64,000 nucleotides of DNA from a virus. The position numbers were made by a program, and so were the translations under genes. Location: positions 1 to 64,000 of IMG/VR virus record IMGVR_UViG_3300042562_001145; one strand, 5' to 3'. Shown one piece after another: positions 3,301-59,508 of this stretch. The number at the start of each line of letters is the position of its first letter. Positions within the stretch are counted from its first letter, which is position 1. The notes under the pieces were generated by a model. That model was not told the DNA's origin. It did no database searches and saw nothing but the letters and a program-made list of their open reading frames with translations.

Positions 3301-5521
3301 CAGCTATTGGTTCTGTTGTAGTATTGTAAAGCTCATCTATCTTAGCATCATACTCTTCTGTAACTTCTTTTATCCTTTTGTCTTTTTCGGCTTGTATTTC
3401 TTCCTCTGTAGGTGCTGATATTGTATCCCCATTTTCTGGTTCAACTAGACTTTCTTTTTTGTTTATAATATCTTGTACAAATTCTTGTCCTTCAACTACA
3501 TTGGCCGCTTGGTCTATCAATGTACTTGATTCCATACTTTTTTGTAAGCCTTCCAAAAACTCTACGGTAATATCAGTTGGAGTTTTGTCTGAACGTATCT
3601 CTGTTATGATATTTCTTTTTCCTCTAAGTCCTAATTTTGGATCTGAAAGTTGTCTAGATAAATCAGCATATCTTGTGAATGCAGTGATTGACTTACCATA
3701 CTCATTTAATAGTTTTTGTAATTTTAATCCTTTTTGTGGATCAACTTGGCCTAACTGCCCAGCTAGTTCTTTTATTTGGTTTAATGTGTTTATTCTATTT
3801 TTAACAGACTGGCTGCTAATCATGATTTCATCTACATTTTTACCAAATGGATTTTTCATGTTTGCTGTTTTTATTAACAAACTGTAGTCTTTAGTCAAGC
3901 TTTCTATTTGACCTTCAATCTCTTTTATTTGATTTCTAATACTGTCTGTTTTGTTTAGGAATTTTTTTCTTTCTTCCGGCTCAACAGTATTGAACATAGT
4001 TTTTTCTACTTCTTTATACTCTCTTTCTAATGCTTCTCTTTGTCTATCTAGGCTTACAATTTGCTTTTCTTTACCTTTTGCCTCTTTTCTGGTTTCTTTT
4101 CCAGCCTTTAGTAAAATATCCTCAATAGCCAATGCCCCAGACATCTCAGTACCCAGTACTGTTCTTCCAGTTTCCTCTTTTATTGCTGTTAGTAAATCTT
4201 GTGAGAATCCGTGTACTTTCTCTCCTAAAGTTAACTCGTATGCAATAGCATCTTTTATATCCCTAACACCTAAAGTTCCAGCTTTTTCTTGCTCTTCTTT
4301 AGATAAGTTTTTGCCAATATAATACTCAGAAAAGTTTCTATACTTCTCGTATATTTTTGCTGTACTTTTATGCTCTTCTATTAACTTCTCTTTTATATCT
4401 TTGGCACCTTGCTCATCAACACCATAGTCTTTCATTAATACATCGTTTCCAATATTATTAATAGCAACTTCTGTTTGTTTTACTGTTTCATCTAAGTAAT
4501 CTAGATTATGTGCCTGAGAAAGTTGTGCTATAATGGCAGACTGTCTGCTTAGTTCCCCTCCTACGAAATCTCCTTTTTTCTCTGCTGCATTTGCTGCTTC
4601 ATTTGATGCTTGTACTCTGCCTGAATATGCCAAAGTTTCTGCTACCTTATTTGGTGAATAGTAGCTATTATAAAAGTTCTCTAAGTTTTTGTTTTTTTGT
4701 TCTGCTCCGGCTACTTCTCCTTTTAGACTTTTGTATTTGTATAGGTTAGTTCCTGAGCCACTTATCAAACCAATGATCATACCAATACCAATTTCTTCCC
4801 ATCCTTTTTTAGTCCCGTAGGTTTCTGAAAGGCCTTGAGTGAAAGCTGTGGATATATCTAATGTATTTTTTGCATACTTTGGGTCGTATTTAGATTGTAT
4901 CCAACTTTTAGCAGTATTCTGCCCTACTGATTGCATACCCTCTTCAAAAACACCTTCCATTAAAGGGCTTTCTCCAATACCCCAAGCGTACTTAGCTGCT
5001 GTTTGTAGTTTAGTAGCTGTTTTAGCTACCATCTTTCCTTCAATCTCTTCTAGTCCAATACCAAATAGTTTAGAATTAGCCCATTTTGAGCCTCCTGTTA
5101 AAGGGCTTTTTATATCTGCTAATCTACCTATCGTCATCAAGTTACTTGAGCCTACGACAGCTAAATTAAATCCATATAGTGCGTTTGCAGAATCTGTTAA
5201 GTTTTCATCGAAAGCTTTAGTTTCTTCTTCTGTTGGAGGTCTATTATTTTTACTCTCGAAGTCAGATGCAAAACCATCCTTCATCTCTCGTATATAAGTA
5301 CGTGCCTCCATACCAGATTCAAATCCTGCTGAAGTGTACATATACCTAGCTGTATTCAAAAACTCTCCTGCTTTTCCTAGTTTTGTTGCTAATCCTACAG
5401 GTAGCATTTTGTTTGAGTAAGTAAGTAAAGCTGGTTCAGACACCGCAGATTTAGCTTTTGACATTGCTTTGAATGTTTTTGCTATTCCGGCCTCTGCACC
5501 AAAAAGTCTTTCTGCTTGCAT
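365..5521 (-). CDS. Giant virion-associated (cargo or ejection-like) protein, C-terminal 1718 residues
   Basis: This very long charged protein is rich in predicted coiled coil (Lys/Glu-rich stretches over much of residues 260-700) with a Gly/Ile-rich hydrophobic segment near residues 240-255 (IGIGMIIGLISGSG). No enzyme motif was recognised. The first ATG of the open frame is at 5521, but the same frame continues upstream to about 5795 without a start codon and encodes sensible protein there (WYKQAIGLEEGGANFWADK, then an Ala/Gly-rich hydrophobic stretch). The preceding gene at 5743-6213 overlaps this extension. The two are therefore probably one gene of about 1949 codons interrupted by a one-base frameshift. 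Large internal proteins with glycine-rich hydrophobic segments in tail regions of crAss-like and podovirus genomes are often cargo or ejection proteins; that role is inferred from position and composition. Confidence 0.75.
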   Translation of the reverse strand: MQAERLFGAEAGIAKTFKAMSKAKSAVSEPALLTYSNKMLPVGLATKLGKAGEFLNTARYMYTSAGFESGMEARTYIREMKDGFASDFESKNNRPPTEEETKAFDENLTDSANALYGFNLAVVGSSNLMTIGRLADIKSPLTGGSKWANSKLFGIGLEEIEGKMVAKTATKLQTAAKYAWGIGESPLMEGVFEEGMQSVGQNTAKSWIQSKYDPKYAKNTLDISTAFTQGLSETYGTKKGWEEIGIGMIIGLISGSGTNLYKYKSLKGEVAGAEQKNKNLENFYNSYYSPNKVAETLAYSGRVQASNEAANAAEKKGDFVGGELSRQSAIIAQLSQAHNLDYLDETVKQTEVAINNIGNDVLMKDYGVDEQGAKDIKEKLIEEHKSTAKIYEKYRNFSEYYIGKNLSKEEQEKAGTLGVRDIKDAIAYELTLGEKVHGFSQDLLTAIKEETGRTVLGTEMSGALAIEDILLKAGKETRKEAKGKEKQIVSLDRQREALEREYKEVEKTMFNTVEPEERKKFLNKTDSIRNQIKEIEGQIESLTKDYSLLIKTANMKNPFGKNVDEIMISSQSVKNRINTLNQIKELAGQLGQVDPQKGLKLQKLLNEYGKSITAFTRYADLSRQLSDPKLGLRGKRNIITEIRSDKTPTDITVEFLEGLQKSMESSTLIDQAANVVEGQEFVQDIINKKESLVEPENGDTISAPTEEEIQAEKDKRIKEVTEEYDAKIDELYNTTTEPIAETASANWGKDLDKVKEELNKLGTKEEKLQWLSDNGYLEPFVQDGKTSNYLKTATGRVVVKIKIGDILVPFYISTGQGLKADVESNKWYVFFGQGENGWFNKTSGKDINTQYDVKVFQDIAEVLNEVGNKKEEYKTHEDDRGFMDLKWTGLAEGELNTTIDFITPIQPSASPDGPKASPEQIDQLNKNIQEVKDRVAAELAKEPTPTVDKSRSPKNIDIERRNLERDKEDAIDEIKREGTEKVKQLTIREYIRDLIKNSPYLFEYYGEDTPVMMTEDEMNEFQDLARRAIEDPKIDNKTISFKSPYTWNRLTPTTRPSLLKAEIKRLQELNEKLANWRLLEAYGSSEGVSITDMILQDILTKRVVEPVDTTQTSEQDFHKVNQERDPKVDEDGKEVRRSEILQNVEKVVARKAKNGFYISHLTFPGLVDRLLTLTNDIIYTEVDEKGKVIPGSDKKILAEDIINNSKLNARFLLTFEDGATATVRITRGGQIVLKNAEAEKVLNDARLKFIQGGELNTSNYGDIYDLEVQSAEGHKLDSDFRDVLNYSPEEIYNAKPGSIIKFEVDIEDSYNQEIIQAFREVEAEFAKDSKEYTDAANYLRDQIKIDTLDKAGNRVGMLKANYDIKGDNASFLLIRQQAFDKAIDPNGKTKIILDIESSVKFIFLGSANYTLEEGKVKLFEPVTEKIVDYGYYDKGELILKGGKTETKIKTHFLAKLKNRSNLPVIVFKQGEYLVAFPVALKTRSDIKLGDEFIKNVKPGDNMGKVAIELNNLLEQHHLSPSKYGLHYAGVESETLFDEQGNNSEDLTKALNDLNSIPQVADVRDWMEPGFKKEDLAGDILVPFDLNNNPLSSPKIVLDLDSNRVVIYEDTENGPSEADIKNAAEKIITEIVDENLQNNEESDTFAKTKEQLEREAAKKAAAKASKTEKQMTEVENESQETKDTSEDVVGKHNAEADADIAASSKKTREDLNNNKPTFC

Positions 5522-56057: not shown

Positions 56058-56369
56058 TTAGTTTAAATTATTCCATTTATCTAGTGGGCACATATTTTCT
56101 GGATCTTGTTGGGAGCTTTTGAATACTAGATTACATCCGCATGATGTACATATAGAATCATCAGTAACACTAACTCTCATAAAAAAGTTCAAAATCTTAT
56201 TAATCCTTATTTTAAAAGTATCCAGTAATGTTAGTTGATCTTTGTTATCTGAATTTAGTGGGCATTCTTTACATACACTTAGTCTCTTTTTTTGCTGCTC
56301 TGTTAGATTACCGTTGTGCTCTGCTCTGCTTTTTATTGCAAGGTATGCAATCTTAAAAATATTTCTCAT
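56058..56369 (-). CDS. Zinc-ribbon-like small protein (103 aa)
   Basis: Cys residues group as CKECP near residue 34, then ICTSCGCNLVFKSS near residue 75 and a final CPLDKW. The pattern of C-x2-C-G-C and CPxxKW at the end is one I have seen in small conserved proteins of Bacteroidota phages, and a metal ribbon is likely. The N-terminal half is basic and helical. It overlaps the 153-residue gene by 17 bases. Confidence 0.7.
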   Translation of the reverse strand: MRNIFKIAYLAIKSRAEHNGNLTEQQKKRLSVCKECPLNSDNKDQLTLLDTFKIRINKILNFFMRVSVTDDSICTSCGCNLVFKSSQQDPENMCPLDKWNNLN

Positions 56370-56814
56370 GATCTTCGTTATGTTTTTGTTCTAATATTTT
56401 CCAATTTTTGTAAAAAGATGTTAGGATATTCCTGGGAGCTTCTCCAAATAAACTGTATGTAAGAGTACTTACCATTGGTCTATTAAAGTTTTTTAAGCTA
56501 TTCTTTCCTTCTTTGTTGGCTATACTAAGAAGGTAGTTTAATTTACTTCTTATAAATCCAATCTTATCAACACTATTACTTCTAGCTGCCTGACATCTTC
56601 CAAGGTAATAGTTAAATAACATCTTCCCAAAATTAGGAAAATTTATAACAACAATATCACTATTTTTTAATACTGATGATTTAATATAACTATTGTTTTG
56701 TTTTATAATATCAGCCAAAAGTGCTTTATCTTTACCTGTTTTGGCTGCTAATATTTCGATAATATCCTCTGTGAAATATATTGTCTTAGGTTTCTTTTTG
56801 GAAGAGTAGGACAT
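56353..56814 (-). CDS. HU/IHF-like DNA-binding protein (153 aa)
   Basis: Residues 15-70 parallel HU proteins: DIIEILAAKTGKDKALLADI (helix-turn-helix pair like HU helices 1 and 2), then IVVINFPNFGKMLFN in place of the usual V-x-L-x-GFGxF. The rest is basic and helical (RCQAARSNSVDKIGFIRSKL). crAss-like phages are known to encode HU/IHF-type proteins. It could shape DNA for packaging or replication. The similarity is by eye, without a search. Confidence 0.5.
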   Translation of the reverse strand: MSYSSKKKPKTIYFTEDIIEILAAKTGKDKALLADIIKQNNSYIKSSVLKNSDIVVINFPNFGKMLFNYYLGRCQAARSNSVDKIGFIRSKLNYLLSIANKEGKNSLKNFNRPMVSTLTYSLFGEAPRNILTSFYKNWKILEQKHNEDHEKYF

Positions 56815-57145
56815 AAATTTCTTTTTTATTTGTTATGAAACTCTCTCTAATACTATTCATATCTTGGGATAATTTGCTCATCCTTTGATTATTTGGATGT
56901 GTTACTAAGTAACCTTTTTCCCTCAAATGGACATCTGCTACTCGGATGTCTCCATCTTTTTTATCAGTATCTTCTTTTATAAACTCTTTTGTGTCCTTAC
57001 TATATCCATTTCTTATATAGTAAATTAAGATCAATCTTTCAAAATTTCTAAGTGGTTTATCTTGTGATATTGAGTAAACTCTTAGTATCTTGTCAATTAT
57101 ATCAATCTCGTTTTTATACTTGCTTCTTAATGTTGGAAAATTCAC
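56786..57145 (-). CDS. Putative winged-helix-like regulator (119 aa)
   Basis: This is a compact basic-helical protein (IIDKILRVYSISQDKPLRNF; RLILIYYIRNGYSKDTKEFI). A segment VADVHLREKGYLVTHPNNQR has the spacing of a recognition helix followed by a wing hairpin. It follows its own strong promoter by 18 bases and overlaps the next gene by 29 bases. A regulator of the late block is plausible but the evidence is only architectural. Confidence 0.5.
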   Translation of the reverse strand: MNFPTLRSKYKNEIDIIDKILRVYSISQDKPLRNFERLILIYYIRNGYSKDTKEFIKEDTDKKDGDIRVADVHLREKGYLVTHPNNQRMSKLSQDMNSIRESFITNKKEIYVLLFQKET

Positions 57146-57162
57146 TATCTATATTTTTTTTG

Positions 57163-57193
57163 CAAAGATATAAATAATATTTGAATACTACAA
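57163..57193 (-). promoter_or_regulatory. Promoter for the 119-residue gene
   Basis: On the minus strand -7 TATCTTTG (57170-57163) and -33 TTG (57193-57191) are separated by 20 bp, in the gap between two small genes. Leader of about 12-14 bases. Confidence 0.85.
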
Positions 57194-57213
57194 CATAATT
57201 AACAATTATTTAA

Positions 57214-57495
57214 CTAGAAGTCTTTTATCTCTTTTATATTCTTTATCATAGGCTGGAATCTGAATGTATTAAAAAAGAAAGATTCTAGCATTCTTGCTAT
57301 TATTCTGATTGTCATTGGACTATTCATTTGGTACAGCCTGTACAAATCAAAAGTTAGATTACTGATGTAATCATCGTTTGCATCTAGATAAGATGTTGAA
57401 ATAACTTTCTCCGAAATATCTTCCCAGACTAGATCGTAGAATTCTTCGTATGTTAATTCCTGAAAATCGGAATATGTAAAATCTTTTGTTGACAT
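57214..57495 (-). CDS. Hypothetical acidic protein, first gene of the minus-strand block (93 aa)
   Basis: This acidic, aromatic-rich helical protein (FTYSDFQELTYEEFYDLVWE; LTFDLYRLYQMNSPMTIRII) has no Cys. It is the first gene leftwards from the divergent control region with its own promoter. Early position and acidic character suggest a regulator or host-interacting protein, but nothing in the sequence proves it. Confidence 0.6.
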   Translation of the reverse strand: MSTKDFTYSDFQELTYEEFYDLVWEDISEKVISTSYLDANDDYISNLTFDLYRLYQMNSPMTIRIIARMLESFFFNTFRFQPMIKNIKEIKDF

Positions 57496-57519
57496 TATTA
57501 TATGGTTTTATTATTTGTG

Positions 57520-57550
57520 CAAAGATACAAATTATATTTAACTAAACCAA
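57520..57550 (-). promoter_or_regulatory. Leftward promoter of the divergent control region
   Basis: On the minus strand -7 TATCTTTG (57527-57520) and -33 TTG (57550-57548) are spaced 20 bp. The start codon lies 25 bases after the box. Confidence 0.85.
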
Positions 57551-57576: not shown

Positions 57577-57607
57577 TTGGATAATATTATTTTTATTTGT
57601 AAATTTG
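57577..57607 (+). promoter_or_regulatory. Upstream rightward promoter of the control region
   Basis: -33 TTG at 57577-57579 and -7 TAAATTTG at 57600-57607, spacing 20 bp. It reads into the second promoter and the structured RNA region. Confidence 0.7.
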
Positions 57608-57628
57608 CAAAAATAAATTACAAATGTC

Positions 57629-57659
57629 TTGCATAAGTAATATATTTGTTGTAATTTTG
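57629..57659 (+). promoter_or_regulatory. Second rightward promoter, directly before the structured RNA
   Basis: -33 TTG at 57629-57631 and -7 TAATTTTG at 57652-57659, spacing 20 bp. No open reading frame begins within 400 bases downstream, so the transcript starting near 57665 is untranslated at its 5' end. Confidence 0.8.
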
Positions 57660-57664
57660 CAGAC

Positions 57665-57810
57665 TTAAATAATATAATAGCGTGAGGCTACCTGAAAAGG
57701 TTCACGTTGCGGTGTAAAAACCTAAGCTAAATGGAAGAGGGCATTACTTTTGTAATGAAGACCGCCAGAGCATGGCTGTTTTATGATTTCAGCCAACGTT
57801 ACGCAAGTAG
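57665..57810 (+). ncRNA. Candidate structured non-coding RNA
   Basis: Within 146 bases after the promoter several stems can be drawn. A GNRA-capped hairpin with a 4-base bulge is at 57681-57706 (CGTGA and ACCT pairing around GAAA with AGGT and TCACG). CGGT (57710-57713) pairs with ACCG (57761-57764) around a 6-bp hairpin CATTAC/GTAATG (57742-57757). A 6-bp hairpin TGGCTG/CAGCCA is at 57773-57795. ACGTTG (57704-57709) can pair with CAACGT (57794-57799) to close a three-way junction, in competition with parts of two other stems; a GCGTGA/TTACGC outer stem is a further alternative. No start codon with a plausible frame is present, and the base composition is less AT-rich than the flanks. I do not recognise the family. 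It might be a regulatory RNA, a riboswitch-like leader of the helicase gene or a ribozyme. Confidence 0.6.
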
Positions 57811-58073
57811 TTAATTAAGTAAATAATATTGACGAATAAGCAATAGGTCTTTCAGTAACAAAACAAAAAATCTACAGTTGGTCTTTGGATTCGGTGTTTT
57901 TCCGCAACTGGTTCTCCTTCTTCTTTTACTTTAATTAGTAAGAGGGGGAGGGGGGTGTTCTTCCACTAGCCACCAGTAGCACCATAGAAGAGCTGTCAAA
58001 ACCACACCAGCCTCAAGAAAACAGCAAAACCTAAAAATAAAAGCAATTATCTCTGAAATAAACGGTTAACCCC
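57811..58073. other. Gene-free leader region with two hairpins before the helicase promoter
   Basis: No plausible coding frame was found. A hairpin CAGTTG/CAACTG at 57875-57910 is followed directly by a long one: 57911-57930 (pyrimidine-rich) can pair with 57937-57956 (purine-rich) over 20 continuous pairs including G-U, closed by TTAATT. The G-rich arm (AGAGGGGGAGGGGGGT) could form G-quadruplex or triplex structures in DNA. The rest, to 58073, is A-rich with no recognised motif. Origin, terminator of the upstream RNA or packaging signal are all possible. Confidence 0.45.
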
Positions 58074-58104
58074 TTGTATATATGGAATATAATTTGTACC
58101 TTTG
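58074..58104 (+). promoter_or_regulatory. Promoter of the helicase gene
   Basis: -33 TTG at 58074-58076 and -7 TACCTTTG at 58097-58104, spacing 20 bp. The box itself contains an in-frame TTG (58102) that could be mistaken for a start codon; the ATG at 58123 lies 19 bases beyond the box and is the better start. Confidence 0.9.
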
Positions 58105-58122
58105 CAAAAAGATAACAGTAAT

Positions 58123-59508
58123 ATGTATAAATTAAGAAATTACCAGAGCGACTCAGTGCTAAAAGGCGTGGAGATATTAAACAGTACTACTTCTAGAAGA
58201 GAGCTACTAGTATTGCCAACTGGTGCAGGTAAGTCAATTGTAATTGCAGAAATAGTAAAACAAATATCAGATCCTGTAGTAGTATTACAGCCATCAAAAG
58301 AATTACTCGAACAGAACTATCAAAAGTTTATTAATGTTGGAGGAGAAGCTACAATATACTCTGCATCTGCCGGAATTAAAGAAATCAGTCACGTGACCTT
58401 TGCAACAATAGGGTCTATAAAAAAAGAAGTAGAAAATCTAAAAAAGCTAGGAAAAGTAAAAGTTATTATTGACGAAGCACATATAGGTGTAAAATCAGAT
58501 TCACAATTACGTAATTTTTTAAAAGACCTAGGAGTAAAAAATACTCTAGGTTTGACAGCAACACCTTTTATATTGGCTAGCTCTATGAATGGTGCCGAAC
58601 TAAAGATGTTAACAAAGATTAAAGGTAAGCTTTTTACAAATATTGCATACGTACATCAGATAGGTAATATGTTAGAAGACGGCCATTGGACACCTATAGA
58701 TTATAAAATAATCCAACAGGACGATGATTTTTTAGAAGTTAATTCCTCAGGCTCTGATTATACAGAAGACAGTATGAGACGTTTCTACGAAGGAAATGAT
58801 TTACAGACACAGATTGTAGACAATATTAATAACTGTCTGTCTAATGGATCAAAATCCATACTGGTGTTTGTCCCTACAATACAAGAAGCTGATCAAATTA
58901 GTAAAAAGATACCTGGTGCACAATCAGTAAGTTCATTGACACCAAAAAAAGAAAGGGACACAATAATTAACTCTTTCAAAAATAGAGATACACATGTAGT
59001 TATAAATGTAGGAATCTTGACAACTGGCTTTGATTACCCAGAACTAGATACAATCATACTTGGTAGATCAACAATGTCTTTTGCTTTATATTATCAAATG
59101 GTAGGTAGAGGTGTTAGAATACATGACAATAAAACAAAAACTGAAGTTATTGACCTTAGTGAAAATTTTAGTAGATTTGGAAAAGTTGAAGAATTTACCA
59201 TAGAATTTTTAGAAGGGTATGGCTGGGGATTGTTTAAAGGAGAAAGTTTAATAAGCAACTATCCTATAGAAGCCAAGCATAGACCACAGAAAAAGAATCT
59301 TATAAAGAAACCAACTCCAAACATTGCCACAACAGTTAGCACAGTAGGAGAAAGCAAGATGCCATTTGGTAAGTTTAAAGATAAAACTATTGCCAATGTT
59401 TATAAAGAGGATAAGAACTATTTAGTTTGGGTGTATGAGAACGTAAAATTCTACCCAAATCAAAAATGGCTGAAGTCTGAAATTGGAACTATGTTAAAGG
59501 TTTCTTAA
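58123..59508 (+). CDS. SF2 DEAH-type DNA helicase with ExoX-like C-terminal domain (461 aa)
   Basis: Start chosen at ATG 58123 because the upstream TTG lies in the promoter. Motif I is LPTGAGKS (residues 31-38), motif II IIDEAH (115-120), motif III LTATP (about 145), and motif VI QMVGRGVR (about 325) follows TTGFDYPELDTIIL, typical of SF2 helicases related to RadD and type III restriction helicases. The last 60 residues (SKMPFGKFKDKTIANVY and YLVWVYENV) match the small ExoX-type C-terminal domain found on several phage nucleases and helicases. The likely role is unwinding or annealing of DNA in replication or recombination. It is followed by recA after a second promoter. Confidence 0.9.
   Translation: MYKLRNYQSDSVLKGVEILNSTTSRRELLVLPTGAGKSIVIAEIVKQISDPVVVLQPSKELLEQNYQKFINVGGEATIYSASAGIKEISHVTFATIGSIKKEVENLKKLGKVKVIIDEAHIGVKSDSQLRNFLKDLGVKNTLGLTATPFILASSMNGAELKMLTKIKGKLFTNIAYVHQIGNMLEDGHWTPIDYKIIQQDDDFLEVNSSGSDYTEDSMRRFYEGNDLQTQIVDNINNCLSNGSKSILVFVPTIQEADQISKKIPGAQSVSSLTPKKERDTIINSFKNRDTHVVINVGILTTGFDYPELDTIILGRSTMSFALYYQMVGRGVRIHDNKTKTEVIDLSENFSRFGKVEEFTIEFLEGYGWGLFKGESLISNYPIEAKHRPQKKNLIKKPTPNIATTVSTVGESKMPFGKFKDKTIANVYKEDKNYLVWVYENVKFYPNQKWLKSEIGTMLKVS

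Follow-up and report, generated by a model that had tools for sequence, protein, structure and literature searches.

The window, the 64,000-nt stretch of virus DNA analysed here (positions 1-64,000 of IMG/VR record IMGVR_UViG_3300042562_001145), comes from a phage that is kin to Cellulophaga phi17:2 (Lightbulbvirus) and to csAssE-Sib, with a terminase identity of 34-36%. Between a leftward gene for a 93-aa protein and a rightward gene for an SF2 helicase it almost certainly harbors a conserved non-coding RNA gene of ~300 nt that represents a new family (Table 1). The 5' end of this gene was placed from its promoter and the 3' end from the point where conservation stops. In the close relatives the leftward genes encode proteins of 153, 119 and 93 aa, in this order, RNA and helicase come next in the rightward direction, and where the contig reaches further the helicase is followed, also rightward, by genes for RecA, a GIY-YIG protein and PhoH. 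The three leftward genes, which span 56353-57495 in the window, are present in all close relatives; those of 93 and 119 aa correspond to phrog_38534 and phrog_34285 and that of 153 aa to none.

Table 1. Predicted features of the RNA locus, in window coordinates
Feature	Position	Strand	Description and basis
Divergent 93-aa gene	57214-57495	-	phrog_38534; synteny
Upstream promoter	57577-57607	+	Bacteroidota type, TTG-N20-TAAATTTG
Second tandem promoter	57629-57659	+	TTG-N20-TAATTTTG; predicted to start transcription near 57666
Non-coding RNA	57666-57960	+	15 homologues; alignments A1, A3, A6
P1	57679-57708	+	57679-57684/57703-57708 and 57690-57693/57698-57701; GAAA loop; conserved GGCUA internal loop
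P2	57711-57722	+	local GGU/ACC hairpin; paired in 13 of 13 members that have it
P3	57732-57767	+	UGG/CCA, GG/CC (GR/YC) and CAUUAC/GUAAUG around the invariant core AAUGGAAGAG...CGCCAGAG
P4	57774-57794	+	GGCUG/CAGCC; both-sided changes in 3 of 5 pairs; pairing in 100% of cells
P8	57798-57859	+	long-range helix 57798-57802/57855-57859, encloses P5
P5	57810-57833	+	57810-57815/57828-57833; loop UAAnUAAAUAA; both-sided changes in 5 of 6 pairs
A-rich single strand	57859-57874	+	conserved, consensus AAACAAAAAAUCUA; near invariant even in L197 and L227
P6	57875-57910	+	CAGUUG/CAACUG with invariant GGAUUCGGUGUUUUUCC loop; three pairs covary via CG, UA and AU types
P7	57912-57955	+	long pyrimidine/purine hairpin of ~20 pairs; pairing in ~80% of cells, with covariation of the spacer pairs
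G-tract strand	57944-57955	+	invariant, GGGGGAGGGGGG; family form G5-N1-3-G5-7; UGUU follows
Helicase promoter	58074-58104	+	separate promoter; conserved in nearly all members, +348 to +515 relative to the RNA start
SF2 (ResIII/DEAD) helicase gene	58123-59508	+	next gene after the RNA; Pfam, PHROGs, synteny

Fifteen distinct RNA sequences were recovered from IMG/VR contigs by a helicase search combined with exact scans and were scored with nhmmer (the window type, L002, L003, L005, L007, L013, L015, L017, L029, L035, L055, L056, L063, L197 and L227). Two of these, L197 and L227, are divergent members that were first picked up by pattern, and an nhmmer profile built without them still matches both (1e-13 and 2e-17). 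The covariance model R1, which describes the 5' domain, gives 108-184 bits for 15 of 15 members, scores that add no independent support because the model was trained on the same sequences, and it finds exactly one copy per record in nine of nine phage records. All homologues are located directly 5' of the same SF2 helicase and share its orientation, and this RNA-helicase pair is the constant of the locus across relatives; in L247, which shares its contig with L197, it is the opposite strand that carries the 93-aa gene. When frames were compared across the homologues, no coding frame was found to be conserved over the RNA. Over the core of the ~400 bases first described as lacking a plausible frame, the only AUG-led frame is 27 aa long and ends differently in homologues. 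A coding reading from AUGGAAGAG was rejected, as the corresponding frames in homologues range from 7 to 110 aa in differing phases and none is conserved.

Comparison of the members indicates that natural selection maintains the precise folded shape of the RNA across 15 or more related viruses with Bacteroidota-type hosts. The 5' domain contains the helices P1-P5. The GNRA-capped hairpin reported at its start corresponds to P1 and covaries strongly, with changes on both sides in 8 of 10 pairs and 100% of cells paired. P2 is missing from the two most divergent members, and L063 carries a GC to AU change in it. Within P3, the core of which was located by exact scans, every pair of the inner helix covaries. 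The nested hairpin of the preliminary description is retained as far as CATTAC/GTAATG inside P3 is concerned but not in its proposed conserved partner GCGGT/ACCGC; in the corrected nesting GGU pairs locally with ACC to form P2, and the closing pairs of P3 are UGG/CCA and GR/YC. The third hairpin is P4, for which the double-sided changes and complete pairing listed in Table 1 bear out the original assignment. P5 and P8 are additions to the earlier fold. P8, which was brought out by a search for stacked covarying columns together with inspection, occurs as GUUAC/GUAAC, ACCAC/GUGGU, ACUAC/GUAGU and GUUAU/AUAAC, with both-sided changes in four of five pairs and 15 double-change cells compared to 4.1 in shuffles. 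In L007 and L029, and only in these, an insertion of ~13 nt with GAAGGAAGAAGGGGTTrG separates P5 from the 3' strand of P8. A closing stem ACGTTG/CAACGT, on which a switch-like behavior of the RNA had been proposed, is present in the window sequence, where it overlaps P1, but in relatives it is disrupted at several positions; the switch-like reading that rests on it is therefore not supported.

In a plain MAFFT alignment that was not fitted to structure (A3), 23 of the 34 pairs of P1-P5 show changes on both sides. The helices contain 73 double-change cells compared to 19 in shuffles (0/500) and 94.8% of their cells are paired compared to 33-50% in slid controls, a contrast that is in part expected because the structure was read off the same sequences. 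The model-fitted alignment of the 5' domain has 97% of cells paired, 24 pairs with changes on both sides and 83 double-change cells. For the 3' domain, formed by P6 and P7, the corresponding count is 30 double-change cells compared to 15 in shuffles; the two helices beat the shuffles on cells and on score and, by a smaller margin, on two stricter measures (25/500 and 48/500). Covarying pairs, the support that had been called for, are hence present above shuffled and slid controls, and as judged from the alignments the covariation is decisive for a structured RNA. Fold energy by itself is insufficient to settle the matter, z being -1.7 when the first 150 nt are folded and -5.6 when 305 nt are.

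The two further hairpins noted downstream, P6 and the ~20-pair P7, are kept and covary in relatives. In P7 nine G positions never vary in 14 sequences while their partners drift (C 52, U 52, A 16, G 6), which argues that the G strand is itself a target of selection, in addition to the pairing. A conserved G-rich tract at the 3' end of the transcript is seen by sequence in 14 of the 15 members, the exception being L197, which is without G5-N-G5. No intrinsic terminator was called at P7, where the tail is UGUUNU and contains no U tract; ~60-120 nt of poorly conserved sequence follow. Several unpaired patches are nearly invariant, namely AAUGGAAGAG, CGCCAGAG, GUAG, UAAAUAAAUAA, AAACAAAAAA and GGAUUCGGUGUUUUUCC. 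Conservation is 80% in unpaired and 77% in paired columns, and 27 unpaired columns are invariant. Such conservation of unpaired columns is as expected of a surface that would be recognised by a partner.

The Bacteroidota promoter consensus comprises TAnnTTTG at -7 and TTTG near -33 (PMC7366714). Two rightward promoters had been recognised in the window; both are present, follow the pattern TTG-N20-TAnnTTTG and recur 52 nt apart in most relatives. In particular, most of the 17 records scanned have the upstream promoter at -98 to -95 relative to P1, and nearly all members have the -7 box of the second promoter at about -23 to -17. The 115 bases 5' of P1 contain 17 promoter matches in 13 members, whereas 0.2 would be expected and the maximum over 200 shuffles is 2. 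In G007, the phage that carries L227, no promoter directly precedes the RNA, which instead follows a tRNA array and a second structured RNA. On two contigs (L245, that of L007, and L246, that of L029) the helicase promoter is reduced to its -7 box. Given the later promoter dedicated to the helicase in nearly all members, the RNA is probably in the main a stand-alone gene and less likely a helicase leader, and the promoters together with the absent coding frame argue for such a stand-alone RNA gene. The leftward promoter at 57514-57538 and the rightward one at 58086-58110 are near-identical (AATATAATTTGTAyCTTTGCA) and form 25-nt inverted repeats ~550 nt apart.

In G007, and also at L314, an array of 18 tRNAs stands directly before the RNA and helicase, an arrangement like that of Lightbulbvirus. 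Just upstream, at L227:4959-5071 and at ~3270-3388 of L111 (phi17:2), lies a second, different RNA-like element with a closing stem (GUCAAGAA/UUCUUGAC; GCUGAG/CUCAGC), an interleaved stem (CCCACC/GGUGGG; ACCUACC/GGUAGGU) and a T run at its end. By eye it resembles a pseudoknot built into a terminator and occurs in two phage lineages; the fold z in L227 is only -1.4. At the equivalent place before the helicase, phi17:2 (L111, ~3395-3960) and phi4:1 carry a mostly non-coding stretch of ~550 nt that appears structured; it opens with a GAAA-capped hairpin, and R1 detects no homology in it.

A covariance search of Rfam 15 gave no match at gathering score in the window and only tRNAs in related loci, and at a permissive E-value the best window match had E=3.5 and L227 had nothing at E<=1. 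The unmatched families include ROOL, GOLLD, tmRNA, 6S, RNase P, riboswitches and the known ribozymes, and neither ARAGORN nor Rfam found a tRNA or tmRNA at the RNA locus. The suggestion that this is a candidate new phage RNA belonging to no established family is thus upheld by the homologues with compensatory changes and by the Rfam 15 result. By blastn the RNA has no match in known phages and plasmids, and R1 finds none in Cellulophaga phi17:2, phi4:1 or Chryseobacterium MA9V-1. In phi17:2 the model stays blank even with filters off, and the GAAA hairpin there was set aside as a resemblance only; a match in csAssE-Sib (E=0.7) is at chance level. Distant phage helicases (L248-L258, L290 and L299) leave no room for the RNA, as coding reaches to within ~100 nt or less of the gene. 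A search of 296 sampled Bacteroidota genomes with R1 gave no match, which, with strict filters and no positive control, is weak evidence of absence, and pattern matches in bacterial genomes were judged to be chance. A retron msr-msd or DGR template was rejected, as the PF00078 reverse transcriptase is absent from the records of seven relatives, several of them partial. An antisense RNA against phage mRNAs was likewise rejected: complementary 12-15-mers are scattered, differ between phages and give no consistent target. In searches of open-licence full texts no description of this RNA family was found, and no report of RNA genes besides tRNAs was found for the kin of phi17:2 and csAssE-Sib.

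The explanation that we favor, with a probability of about 0.5, is an independent phage gene for a ~300-nt structured RNA that acts in trans via protein binding, and the trans-acting reading of the preliminary description would fit. Host RNA polymerase would transcribe the RNA early from the two tandem promoters, the transcript would fold through P1-P4, then P8 around P5, then P6 and P7, and it would end near the G-tract hairpin. The folded RNA may serve as a scaffold or decoy in trans for at least one host or phage protein, with the invariant unpaired patches listed above as the putative contact surface. The constant position immediately 5' of the helicase makes a cis role possible and counts against action in trans, and the absence of an adjacent RNA promoter in G007 and of a U-tract terminator counts against a stand-alone trans RNA.

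An unlikely alternative takes the RNA to be a pre-primer that acts in cis. The G5-N-G5 of the folded transcript would hold an RNA:DNA hybrid with the C-rich template, as a plain hybrid or a hybrid G-quadruplex, and the RNA would be cut and prime synthesis at a phage origin. The missing U tract and the nine invariant Gs, faced by C or U equally often as though the G strand were selected, favor this, as do helicase and RecA as the next genes and cumulative GC-skew minima within ~0.5 kb of the RNA in G001, G002, G003 and G005. The skew, however, does not hold up as proof of an origin, because in G007, the one member in which strand switch and RNA are apart, the minimum is found at the switch and 5.3 kb away from the RNA. 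Phi17:2, in which no RNA was detected, likewise has its minimum at the switch and far from the helicase. The minimum coincides with the RNA only in members whose strand switch does so as well, and the skew is thus explained by coding direction. Furthermore, L197 does not have the motif, and no iterons or origin repeats lie near the RNA, the repeats beside it being the promoters, for which an iteron origin was discarded. ColE1 RNAII and mitochondrial CSBII pre-primers are likewise transcribed from a promoter and end at a G-rich tract, and the R-loop priming mechanism has been described (PMC6317783). In contrast to these, one divergent member of the present family lacks G tracts, and the conserved fold is far more elaborate than the CSBII transcript. 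The G strand GGGGGAGGGGGG of the window is similar to CSBII in its two-tract form. We know of no ColE1- or CSBII-like replication start in this phage group; if the pre-primer were correct, a structured RNA from tandem host promoters would lock its two-tract G strand onto the template and prime replication.

Quite unlikely, and entertained because of the RNA-helicase linkage alone, is a cis-acting leader of the helicase operon, that is, an attenuator, an antiterminator resembling HK022 put or a protein-sensing element read through from the tandem promoters. The RNA is co-directional with the helicase and directly 5' of it even where the upstream genes all differ, and P7 could serve as a terminator-like stem. 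Against this stand the separate Bacteroidota promoter between RNA and helicase start in nearly every member, the lack of conservation of the alternative stem ACGTTG/CAACGT and the poorly conserved stretch after P7. The leader function suggested at the outset is accordingly weakened by the helicase's own promoter 348-515 nt further on, while the strict linkage leaves room for a cis role. HK022 put and other cis antiterminators are structured RNAs just 3' of an early phage promoter; HK022 put has two stem-loops in ~65 nt, in contrast to the eight helices over 300 nt and the separate downstream promoter found here. Very improbable is a stable RNA of the type associated with tRNA arrays (ROOL, GOLLD, the T4 stable RNAs), abundant, processed, possibly self-assembling and without direct regulation. 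In G007 the RNA is the last element of the 18-tRNA array, and ROOL and GOLLD in phages are often near tRNA islands (PMC12286853), but most members have no tRNA array nearby and the family matches neither ROOL nor GOLLD in Rfam.

ROOL and GOLLD are structured non-coding RNAs of phages and prophages, some of them beside tRNA arrays, whose function is unknown (PMC12286853). The present RNA is like them a phage structured non-coding RNA without assigned function, in G007 beside a tRNA array, and differs in its length (~300 instead of 600-900 nt), its helices, its helicase linkage and its tandem promoters. It also resembles the candidate RNAs of comparative genomics (PMC2864571, PMC8040213), which show covariation in metagenomic homologues and have no assigned function; the present family was not found in Rfam 15. 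The RNA constitutes a well-supported family outside Rfam that joins the small number of phage RNAs known to be structured and non-coding, and its alignment and covariance model can be used now to annotate other phages. The fixed pairing with the helicase and the invariant G strand make both a trans-acting RNP and R-loop priming testable.
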